From: a virus
Direction: 5' to 3' (one strand)
Virus record (IMG/VR): IMGVR_UViG_3300030098_001920
Coordinates: 1 to 27,839 of that record
Length of the DNA: 27,839 nucleotides
Every line of letters starts with the position of its first letter. The first letter of the stretch is position 1. Both the position numbers and the translations under genes were made by a program. The notes under the pieces are model-generated. The model was not told the origin of the DNA, did not search any database, and worked only from the letters and a program-made list of their open reading frames with translations. Shown here piece after piece: positions 1-6,000 of this stretch.

Positions 1-3000
1 AAATCCATTATAGTATTTTTAGCTGCTGATATAATAACTCCATGAACACCAATACCTTTTAAAATATTATCTGCCATGCTGTTAGCTGTTGATATAACTT
101 TCTCTTCAGGTATTTTAGCTTCTTCATCATCGTCATCACCTGCGGCTAAAGCAAATAGTGCAGATTGTAAAGCTGTGAATATTAAGTTTTGAACAAAACC
201 ATAGTATGCTATTTTACTCATGTTAGCTTTCCAATCACCTCTACCTGCTATTAAATCTTTACCAGCTTTGTCCATAATTCTAGCATACTGAGATGGAGTA
301 TTAGCAAACGCAAGTACAAGTCTACCAAGCGTTGAAGCTTGTTGTTGTGATATCTTATCAGCACGAGCAGACTGTTGTGACTCTTCTGCCAGCTCTCTAA
401 AATCTAAGAAAGCTTTTTCTGTAGCTTCAGCTTCAGACATACCTTCTTTCATATATGTTTTAATTCTATTTCTATAAAGTGTTGCACCACCTGAAGCAAT
501 AGCAAAGCTATCTGCAATTTGAGTAAATACAAAACCTTTATTTAATAATAACGATATAACTCCTTTAACTTTATTTTTACTTGTCTTAGCAGCTTCAGCT
601 ATTTCAGATTCACTAACATTTATTTTTAAACCATTTCTTCTATCAACAAGAAAATCTGAGTTCATTAATTTCATAAAGTCAGACCAATACTGTTTTTGGT
701 TTGCAAAAGCTATTCCAGCTTTAATAGGATTATTGTCTTTCCAGTTTATAAAGTTAGCTGCAGATATAGTCTGTAACACTGCAGATCTTGCATTTAAGAA
801 CATTACAGCACCGACAGAGTTGTTTATATAATCTAAAAATCTTTGTTCAACACGACTCATCCCTTGACGTCTATTTTGACCAGTACTCATACGTTGTAAA
901 GAGTTTTCTAACGCTTCTCTATACTTAGGACCAAATGCTGCTTCAAGCTTGTTCATGTTACTTTCATTGAAAGCTAGATCAACATTTTCTTGCCATTGCT
1001 GTAGTAAATTCTTTCTAGTAACTTGCCTTAAACCTTCTCTAAAATCTGTAGTAATAGTACCAGCTAACCAATTTTTACCTGGATAGTAATACCCATCACC
1101 TTTAGTAATAGCTATTAATTGATCAATAAATATATTTAAATCAGGTTTACCTTCTACGTATTTTCTTATAGCATCTAAATCTCTTTTAGATATACCTTCA
1201 ACTTCAATACCTTGTCTATCCCAAGTAGCAACTCTTACAACATCTTCATTTGTAAAACCTTTAATAGCTTCTTTTTTCAAGTTTTTAGGTATACCAATTA
1301 AACTTTCTTTAAGTGTTTTAAAATCAGCCATAAGTTGATTCTGAGCTACAGATAAATCATTCATAGCTCTACCATATGGTTTAATTAAATGCTCTTGCAT
1401 CCACTGCCATTGCTTGTTACCTACTTCACCTTTACTTAATAACTTATATAATAACCCACCAAAATCTTGAGCTGACGGAGGTATAAGATCAAATGACCTT
1501 TTCTTTCTACCTCTTGCTTGTGCTGTTATCTCTGCAAATTGTTTTTCTGGAGTAATACCAGTTTTCTGAAAGATAATAGTATTCATTACCTCATCTACAT
1601 TCTTGCTGAACTTAACTTTAGCTTGTTGCACCTTAGATTTAACATCAATAACATCTAGTACTCTTTTAACAGCATCAACATTACCTAAGTGATCATCTGC
1701 AAAGTAGAAATCATTATAACCATCAGCAGCTTTATCTACTATCCAGTTTGATTTAGCAAGTGGAGAACTATCACCTAACCCTGTTATGTTTTCTATTGGT
1801 ATGTTTAATCCTACACTATCTAAAAATTCTTTAATAGCTGGTGCTGCTTCTGCTGCTCTAGCTGTAAGAACAAATACATCTTTAGTACCTCTAGCTTCTT
1901 GAATCTTTTTTGCTACATCAAACAAAGGTCCTTTTCTACCTTTCATTACTTTGTTAAACTCAGAGAAGTCAAACTCAGCTCCTTGTTCTAACATTTCAGT
2001 ACCACGTTTAGCAAACTCTTCAGCTGTTAATTTACCAGTCTTACCATCAGGCATTGTGTACAATACATTACTTTTAGTTCTAGCTAGTGTGTCGTCAAAG
2101 TCAAATACCCTAATCTTTTTAACTGGAGCGTTGGGATCACGAGCTATATTCAAAGCTTTATCTAGAATTTCAGCTTCTCTAATTACTTCAGAGTTAGTTG
2201 ATTTTTTAGAATACTTAACTACTTTACTTTTGTTAATATTACCAATATTTATTTCTTTAGCTTTTTGAATTTTATCATAAGCTTTCTTAAATCCTTCTCC
2301 TCTTGTTGATTTTTCCCATGATGTAATTTCTCCTTTCTTGTTAAACTTAGGGGTAAAAACTGTCATTGAATAGGGAAATTTACCAAAAGTAAATGAGTTG
2401 AAGTATCTTGAAAATCTACTAGTACCAGTTAAAGGTATAGTATCTTTGTATCGTATGTTAATAACATCATCCATTAACTTTGGAACAACACTTACCGAAG
2501 CGTCTTTAAATTTGTTTTTTAATTCATTTTTTGTTATTTTCCCATCAATATATTGAGCCATATAAACTTTCATAACTCTAACGGGTGGATTATGTTCGAA
2601 CCTATAATCATTAGGATTACTACTTTCACTTACAGAAATACTATCCATAGGATAAGCAGATCTTAATATTTGCGTCATTCCAGACGTGGAGGTCATGAAA
2701 TACATACCTACATCATTTAGCGTTATTCCTTTATCTTTATTGTTTTTATAATAATCTAAATAATCTATAATAGCTTCTTGATTTGCAATAGCATCATTGT
2801 AACTATTAGTTAAAGTATTGTTACTTAAAGCGCCGGTTTTTTTAAACTCATTTAAATATTTTGCTGTAGCTGAATCCGATTGAGGAGCTCTTTGTATTTC
2901 TATTTTTTTACCTTTATAAAAAACATCATATCCTTTAGTTGGTTTTCCATCTTTCGTTTTTTTACCAACTACTTTAATATTATTATCAGTATCAAAAGCT

Positions 3001-6000
3001 TGTTTTATCAATACATTTACTAACTCTTTACTATTGTTAAATAAACCATATCTTTGACCAGTTCCTCTTTTTGTTTTAGGTCCTTCTACTATTCTCCATA
3101 CACCTTTATTGTCTTGTTTCCATATAGCATTAGGCATGTTTCCTATTTTAGAAGGCGAAGACATAGTCCCGTAATGTTGTAATATATATTTATAAAAATC
3201 TAAATCGTTATTAAAGGTTTCTCTCACATCACTAAAATAATTAATAAGAGAATTTGCAAAATTTTCTAATTGAGTTATTCCAGTTTTAGTAAAATCTACA
3301 GATTCTTTATTTAATCCTAATATATCTTGAACTTCTTCTCTTTGAGTTTGTTCAGCAAAAGCCTCATGTAAATACTCGTTTAACTTTCTTTGACTAGGTT
3401 TATCAGTCACAAACTTTTGTTTTGGAAAATTAGAAACTACAGTTTCCCAGTCTTTTATTATATTCTTTCTTATTTTTAAAGGGGTTTGATTTTTTCCTGA
3501 AGTTAAAAATTCATTACCATAAGTGTTTATAAAAGCAGAATTAACATCTTCTCCTATATTAATTCTTTCTATAAATTCAGGCAATTTATCTAAATAAATA
3601 ATATCATTACCTTTTCCCTCTTTAATTAAAGCATTATATGTTCTTCCTAAATTTTCTACTGATTTAGTGTTAATAGACTCTATATTTTTAAGTTTATCTA
3701 ATTTTCTACTAAACTTAATACCAGGTTCTCTACCTATTTTCTCTGCTATCTTGGCTTTAGTTTCCGATGTAACTTTTTTTCCTTGTAACTCTTGAATTTC
3801 AGTAAATCGTTTAAATGCTTTAGGATTTTCTAGCACTTCTAACACTGCATCTTTACCAAGTTCTTTACCTATGGTTTGAGCCAACTGAGTTTGTTTAGAT
3901 GCTGGTCTTCCTTTTGTAGGTGCTAAATGATAATCACTCCAAGTTTGTTGATCAAATTTCTTTTTCGTAAACAAAGTAGGTCCAGAATCTCTAGGCGTAT
4001 CTTTAGGTAACAATCCTTTTTTAATAGCTGCATCAACTTTCAAAGGACCGATATTTTCTTCTCCTTTTATAATAAACTCTTCGAAAGATTTATTTAAAAC
4101 GTCTTGAGGTATTAAATCATAGATTTGTTCACCATACTCTTGCAAAAAATCTTGATATTTAGCACTACCGGGTTTACCCATCAACTCTTTTACAGAGGAC
4201 ATTAACTCACTAGCAAAAGCATCTTGTACTACTTTTTTAAACTTAGGATCAGTGGGAGATGGTAACTTAGTTCCAAAAGTTTTCTTTACAACATCTTTAA
4301 CTTTGTTATAAATTTCGCTACCTTCTTTTATATCTAAAGCTCTTCTTAAATTTATAGATCCTTTTTCTTTTTTAGCTTGTTCTTCTGCTTCTTTTTTCTC
4401 TAAAATTTCAGATGGATCTAAACTTGGATCTACAATAGTCTCTCCTACTGTTCTAGATCCTTGTTCAGTACCAATTTTAGGTACATCTAAAGATTTAGTT
4501 TGTAATCCTTTATCTTTATATCTATTAGTTACATCTCCAACCCTAAAATCCCTTATTCTTTGAGTAATAAACTTACCTAAATCTGCACCTATTCCAGCTT
4601 TTTTTGGATCAAACCTATATAAATCTAAAGCAACTTCTTCAGCCACTTCTTTCATAATCTTTTTTCTTGGTTGACCATGTATATTGTCTCCAGGTTCTAA
4701 ATATTTATTTATTAAAGGATCAAATCTTTCATCATAAAAAGCATCAGTTAAAGCTTGAAACTCTGGACTGGTAATCCACTCGTTTTGAGTCATGTCATAA
4801 TTACCTTCTGAATCTCGAGGTATAACTCTAGACATATCTATTTGATTATCTCCTTTTGTAGGTAAGAGTGTTTTAGAAAACTTAGTATCTGATTTTTTTG
4901 ATGCTGCAATTTTTGAAGGTGCGACTTCAGTTTCTGTTACCTCAAGCTCAGATTTAGTTTCAGCTGTTATTTTGCCTTTAGCCAAGTCATTACCTAAATT
5001 AGTTAAAAATTCAACAATATCATTTTCTCCTTTAAAATCTAATTCAAAAGTTCCATTACTAACTTTTTTCAAACCTTGATTTAAAAGTTTAGCAAACTTA
5101 GCAGCAAAGCCTGGTTCTAGTTCAACGTTACCTTCAACCATTTCCTCTACAAAAGAAGAAAACACTTCTTCAAAGTCAAAACCAGTACCATCCTCTGTTT
5201 TTAAGTTGTTAGTTCCTTCAACCTGCATTTTAGTAAATAATTCTGGTTGAGTAATTTTTAAATAACTAGTTAAGAATTGCATTGCATCTGTGAAAGCTGC
5301 AGGATCTTTTGCTATTAATAGTGTAGTAGCACCATGACCAGATTCATGAAGAGGTACTCCTGGCTTTTGATTAGCAACAGAATTTTCTTTTATATTAACT
5401 TGCAACCTTTTATTAGGATCAAAAAACCCATTTGTCTTTTGATTAAGTATTGCATCAGCATATTCTTCTCCAAGATTTTCAAAATTTTCATCTGTTGCTG
5501 GATCATTTTTATATATTTCTTTTACAGCTTCAGCAGCTTCTTCTTTTGTATCATATGACTGCATTGTTAATTGTAAATCCTTAGCAACATTTTCAGCTTT
5601 GGTTAAGTTAGCATCATAATCTCTTGCATCAACTATTTTTACTGCTTCTGCATTTATTTCATTACCTGTAGGAGAGTATGTTGGATCGTTTTTCTTTTCT
5701 TGTATGTTTTTGGTTGCTTCTTTAGTTATAGCCTCAACATCTGTTTGAATGTTTTCATTTGTGTTACCAAGCATAGCAAACCACTTATGCCCAAACAACT
5801 CATTATTTTTAAATAATTGCTGTGTAGAATTTAAAGCGTTATACCTATCATTTAATCTTTTTAAAAGTTTTTCTTTAACCTCTGTATCAAGTTCTAAATC
5901 ATTTGTTATTTCTTGAGCCTGTAACCTTAAATCAGCTAACTTTTCTTGGTTTTGAGCATATAGTTCTCCAGCGTCTTTTTTTATACCTTCTTCTCTTAAT

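Follow-up and report, generated by a model that had tools for sequence, protein, structure and literature searches.

The virus record IMGVR_UViG_3300030098_001920 of IMG/VR, analysed over its 27,839 bases (the window), contains a block of structural genes from a podovirus-like phage. The last gene of this block encodes a giant polyvalent-type protein in which a short tag, K-F/Y-S-K/R, recurs at the borders of its modules. Judged from sequence, the giant is probably a phage polyprotein that processes itself, the tags being the sites at which it is cut and the zincin-like peptidase embedded in the same chain being what recognises them. The tag is enriched in related giants, lies at module borders, co-varies within each protein and is absent from giants without the peptidase module.

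All four motifs of the window protein, KFSK at residue 1309, KFSR at 1698, KYSK at 2198 and KFSK at 2399, were found at exactly the residues named in the initial annotation, as was the HESGH of the peptidase-like region at 1154. The lower coordinate given there for the motifs, 1411, matches none of them, the lowest motif base being 1602. Shuffling of the protein gave a chance expectation of 0.22 for the motifs and a probability of 1.5e-4 for four or more. AlphaFold, run on residues 1045-1760, placed tag 1 in a linker (pLDDT, the model's confidence score, 31-40) and tag 2 at a point where the confidence falls after a domain; in the model of the HAD-fold hydrolase module, the confidence is lowered around tag 3 (about 68) and tag 4 (about 50-65), and tag 4 is in a predicted helix. 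As a separate observation on codon use, all four window tags and 14 of 24 non-homologous KFSK sites have AAG for the first lysine, although AAG makes up only 20% of the lysine codons.

A tblastn search of named phages with the whole giant and a single-sequence scan of IMG/VR gave no matches; relatives were instead reached via the major capsid protein (MCP) and the portal. A first set of 95 non-redundant homologous giants was collected by MCP and C-terminal searches, and a second set of 56 was obtained with a different query. The homologs are environmental contigs, and the giants are 1900-3900 residues long. KFSK was observed 46 times in the first set, where 7.4 were expected, and 26 times against 5.1 in the second; the broader [KR][FY]S[KR] occurred 83 times against 25 in the 95 giants. 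There was no excess of the motif in the other open reading frames (ORFs) of the same loci (8 observed, 12.1 expected).

Six modules were modelled with local profiles, of which SIG, M2, N1 and CT carry local labels that imply no assigned function. The proposals of the initial annotation that the motifs stand at module borders and that two of them bracket the HAD domain were both borne out by the relatives. Domain models were avoided by 77 of the 83 motifs in the first set and by 45 of 46 in the second, all of these falling between models, with recurrent spacings of mostly 18 residues ahead of HAD, 5-7 past it, 6-8 ahead of CT and about 27 past SIG. Of 87 giants, 18 have a tag shortly before HAD, mostly at 18 residues, and 22 have one 5-7 residues past it. 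An analysis that was independent of the profiles gave the same picture, since a median of 12 BLAST alignment ends fell within 25 residues of a motif compared with 1 at random positions (P = 8.5e-16). Tags before CT remain where the upstream module is not HAD. Co-occurrence of the strict tag at both HAD flanks was weak (P = 0.06), and among the giants none was found to be split into separate genes at the tags. The hits of an IMG/VR scan for the DNA pattern of [IMV]KFSRK were mainly HNH endonucleases and short frames, and a permuted control did just as well, so that the tag is unusable alone for discovery.

Conservation of the motif against variable linkers, which had been proposed as a check of the initial annotation, was found only in part. 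The exact [KR][FY]S[KR] is present at the HAD/CT border of 22 of 87 giants, the others having KFSE, KASK, QFSK and the like, and the mean identity in pairwise alignments was 0.42 for the tag and 0.44 for its flanks. The tag residues are no more identical than the flanks because the tag drifts. Taken literally, the absence of conservation that the initial annotation had named as speaking against its idea is therefore partly the case; what is kept is the position of the junction and the sameness of the tags within one protein.

A search for repeated words of any kind inside single proteins had among its top entries QFSK, used four times (L447, L496), FSET/KFSE (L541, L442) and KASM (L400). A giant tends to repeat its own version at several non-homologous junctions, QFSK being counted five times and KFSET five to six times; [MK]ASKR occurs three times each in L388, L399 and L408, and SFSKN is a further version. 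These variants were noticed after the fact; the covariation test is independent of them, as junction windows of 15-34 residues were compared without any definition of the motif (5-mer test). The junction windows were more alike within than between proteins, with z = 6.0 for CT vs. HAD, 5.6-5.7 for CT vs. SIG and 7.0-7.1 for CT vs. zincin (P < 1/3000); for HAD vs. zincin the covariation was weaker (z 2.5). With the giants whose windows hold a canonical tag left out, z was still 5.6 (CT/HAD), 3.4 (CT/SIG) and 8.4 (CT/zincin). Windows shifted by 40 residues showed essentially no covariation (z up to 1.95), and it fell to about zero once the residues inside the windows were shuffled. A coarse test that sorted the second tag position into three classes (F, A or L) found no significant covariation (P = 0.26). 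The tag serine is coded by both TCN and AGY, even within one protein (TCT, AGT, TCT and AGC in the window), which indicates that the likeness of the tags arose at the protein level; recombination at DNA micro-homologies was ruled out as their source by these codons. Such likeness within a protein is expected if several sites are read by one drifting factor. A repeated site at module borders and sites of one protein that evolve together are both features of a self-processing polyprotein.

The tag is also linked to the zincin module. Among 136 N-terminally complete giants, 8 lack the module both by profile and by motif. The broad tag was present in none of these 8 and in 106 of the 128 zincin-bearing giants (P = 2.5e-6), and the strict tag in none of the 8 and in 74 of the 128 (P = 1.4e-3). 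The zincin-less giants keep homologous junctions, with IDRAIxxL where zincin-bearing sisters have xGRPxxFKFSK. After correction for the tree about seven independent contrasts were left, all informative ones in the same direction, with an average drop in broad tags from 5.6 to zero (median p 0.03). In these counts, with few independent contrasts, the tags behave as sites that depend on a protease encoded in cis. Giants whose zincins are closer in sequence also have more similar tags, over and above what C-terminal identity accounts for (partial beta 0.19, P < 0.001).

The possibility was considered at the outset, in the initial annotation, that the motifs are either processing sites, perhaps cut by the peptidase-like region, or docking tags, and the evidence favours the former. 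The tags would mark the module borders of a polyprotein in the window phage, and the zincin-like metallopeptidase module of the same chain would recognise them, cut there and free the modules, either in the capsid or after ejection into the host. If the chain were cut after the last tag residue, the products would be about 148 kDa (the N-terminal part with the zincin), 44, 57, 22 (HAD) and at least 60 kDa (CT). All tags of one protein would shift together in each lineage as the specificity of the reader drifts, forming a private code. That the zincin is the reader, that it cuts, and at which bond, is what we infer from these patterns. It also seems somewhat likely that a marine family of flavophage-related phages employs a true polyprotein strategy for its ejected proteins. 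In such a family, a private tag at each module border would be read by the embedded zincin, the two would diverge in parallel within every lineage, and lineages that lose the protease would afterwards lose the tags.

Several results weigh against this explanation. Many single junctions have no recognisable tag, the HAD/SIG and SIG/zincin junction pairs show no significant covariation, and the tree-corrected strict tag (4.6 to 0, median p 0.06) alone misses 0.05. HAD identity is as good a predictor of tag similarity as zincin identity, so the identity test by itself cannot point to the zincin in particular, and the zincin effect was not significant in a smaller set that included SIG. The first histidine of HExxH is replaced in L381, L551, L548, L539, L452 and L523, giving EExxH in five and QExxH in one, and three of these six have canonical tags. 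Three tag-bearing giants that were first scored as zincin-less have a module with EExxH. Moreover, the virion RNA polymerase of phage N4, which carries such a peptidase domain, is described in the searched passages of Iyer et al. 2017 (PMC5512222) as packaged unprocessed.

The main rival explanation is that the tags are never cut but serve for docking or packaging. Each module would have one tag, to which the zincin-like module, or else a partner such as the portal or a scaffold, would bind for compact folding, packaging or ordered threading-out. Border position, covariation and zincin co-occurrence would all be explained without catalysis, the EExxH of three tag-bearing giants fits, and the N4 region with the peptidase domain is reported to be needed to encapsidate the unprocessed protein (PMC5512222). 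However, HExxH and the distal glutamate are invariant in a 21-member alignment, which pure docking does not need, and DdrB of phage P1, also a peptidase-bearing polyvalent protein, is reported in the same source to be processed; docking appears unlikely. Cutting by another protease, either a phage prohead protease encoded outside the window or a host protease preferring basic residues, would suit sites so rich in K and R. Internal proteins are cut by capsid maturation proteases in other phages, and the predictive power of HAD identity also agrees with an outside protease. A general capsid protease would be expected to tag other structural proteins too, yet the other ORFs show no excess; none of the window's other structural genes was recognised as encoding a protease, and each protein has a tag code of its own, which goes with the presence of a zincin in that chain. 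We regard this origin of the cuts as improbable.

The two remaining explanations concern the origin of the words themselves. The modules are clearly shuffled and giants close in sequence have linkers in common, so that the tags could be a by-product, parts of linkers that moved with recombining modules or arose by duplication inside the gene. This is largely refuted and very improbable, because tags within one protein differ in codons and have unrelated flanks, and they co-vary between non-homologous junctions. Chance would require that linkers rich in K, S and N simply yield words like KFSK, and LTPE and KDGK are indeed over-represented as well. Permuted or substituted motifs, however, occurred at 0.7-1.7 times their expectation, except [KR][LIVM]S[KR] at 1.9 times, which includes likely tag variants, whereas KFSK was at 9.2 times the expectation from linker composition; with the loss of covariation on shuffling residues inside the windows, composition is refuted at the level of these data and hardly credible.

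The features of the window protein are collected in the table. The protein is very large and combines several unrelated domains (zincin, HAD and others) that are shuffled between relatives, as in polyvalent proteins. The zincin module has HExxH and a downstream glutamate as a candidate ligand, all invariant in alignment A4 (21 members). No peptidase family, including Pfam MPTase-PolyVal, was among the Pfam hits of the window protein or of the members of alignment A2. The AlphaFold2 model of the module is confident and its best match in PDB is a zincin protein, but with E = 0.56 the match is below significance. The HAD module has an invariant FDFDD at 2236 in alignment A3 and phosphatase fold matches of probability 0.97 and 0.94, but with E 0.02-0.06. 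In L113 and L421 an inserted P-loop kinase-like segment (IFMIGGPGSGKT) interrupts the HAD domain, giving a split arrangement like that of a polynucleotide kinase/phosphatase. Residues ~1390-1671 (window 3795-4640), before and in SIG, resemble sigma-70 region 2 (FDPxKxG...RIRD); several sigma-factor models were matched by one homolog (E 0.003-0.03), and sigma factors recur among the non-significant fold matches. A virion-borne sigma-like domain in this region is possible but unproven.

Table. Features of the giant protein and their positions in the window.
Feature	Residues	Window position	Strand	Remarks
Giant polyvalent-type ORF	2935 aa	3..8807	-	Downstream of TerL, portal, MCP, ring and muzzle; 3' end missing (contig end)
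Zincin-like peptidase module	1090-1281	4965..5540	-	Profile in ~130/151 giants; HExxH and distal Glu invariant in A4
HESGH, zinc-binding/catalytic motif (by sequence)	1154-1158	5334..5348	-	H1154, E1155, H1158 invariant columns in A4
Glu1214, candidate third zinc ligand	1214	5166..5168	-	Invariant column E125 of A4
Tag 1, KFSK	1309-1312	4872..4883	-	Between zincin and following module; AAG TTT TCT AAA
Module SIG	1476-1671	3795..4382	-	Local profile found in 57 giants
Tag 2, KFSR	1698-1701	3705..3716	-	27 residues past SIG model, as in many relatives; AAG TTT AGT AGA
Module M2	1734-2149	2361..3608	-	Local profile, few relatives
RFSR, doubtful tag	2131-2134	2406..2417	-	Inside end of M2 model
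Tag 3, KYSK	2198-2201	2205..2216	-	18 residues upstream of HAD model, commonest spacing in tagged relatives; AAG TAT TCT AAA
HAD-fold hydrolase module	2216-2392 (Asp2236 to Asp2372)	1632..2162	-	phrog_415 hit; weak class-C acid phosphatase/PSPH fold matches
Tag 4, KFSK	2399-2402	1602..1613	-	7 residues after HAD model, 6 before CT model, same spacing in relatives; AAG TTC AGC AAG
Conserved C-terminal module CT, incomplete	2405-2935	3..1595	-	Alignment A1, 50-71% identity among relatives

The structural block comprises TerL, portal, MCP, ring and muzzle, followed by the giant ORF. By portal, the nearest named relatives are an uncultured spring podovirus (50%), the Flavobacterium elemo phages (41%) and Cellulophaga phi38:1 (35%). 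The position of the giant after the structural genes and the annotation of its elemo counterpart as a structural protein suggest that it is delivered with the genome; it is probably taken up into the virion and released from it together with the DNA. Homologous giants (L453-L463) were also seen in contigs of metagenome-assembled genomes labelled Aliivibrio, Woesearchaeota, Caldiserica and others, which are probably phage contigs binned with the wrong organism.

In the polyproteins of eukaryotic RNA viruses, repeated short sites stand between modules, the protease is in the same chain and the sites drift in concert. The working proposed here is similar but not homologous, as the phage has DNA and a zincin instead of a serine, cysteine or aspartic protease. 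This analogy was already drawn in PMC5512222, where zincin-like MPTase domains were described in the polyvalent proteins of phages and conjugative elements and their release by autoproteolysis was predicted. The window giant resembles those proteins, as far as the searched passages describe them, in its great size, its several domains and its embedded HExxH peptidase; unlike them, it has no Pfam MPTase-PolyVal match, and its candidate sites are located, lineage-specific and covarying. No cleavage site or motif was found in the searched passages of that paper or in further open-licence literature. P1 DdrB, an MPTase-bearing polyvalent protein, is reported to be processed to about 76 kDa before packaging (PMC5512222); compared by this description only, it has one reported product as against the many modules of the window giant.

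The N4 polymerase is, like the window giant, a virion protein with an HExxH module (about 3500 residues), and has one KFSR at 2745 (KFSRK; L476), where 0.14 were expected by chance. Giant cargo proteins gp47, gp49 and gp50 of phicrAss001 are encoded after the muzzle gene and present in virions (PMC10172136); their annotation, unlike that of the window giant, is RNA-polymerase-related. They showed no enrichment of the tag (0, 1 and 0 motifs), the single KFSRK being at residue 1108 of gp49 (L557; 0.14 expected), and one HExxH, in gp47. The tag was also absent from P1 DarB, which is likewise polyvalent, from five of six proteobacterial LPD38 giants, and from the giants of phi38:1, phi13:2 and elemo. 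These proteins, with gp47 and gp50, led us to reject the tag as a general feature of polyvalent proteins.

As far as can be told, the idea of self-processing is already known, whereas the sites and their concerted drift are new. Self-cutting of phage giants has been suspected, yet was untestable without known sites. Here the sequence itself gives the candidate sites, so that exact fragments follow for any of about 150 phages, each of which provides a tag of its own as a specificity control. If the explanation is true, a located and evolving cleavage code would be known for the first time from phage polyvalent proteins. The tag would then mark domain boundaries in unannotated giants and aid the discovery of ejected enzymes, and the family would supply sequence-specific peptidases with differing specificities.

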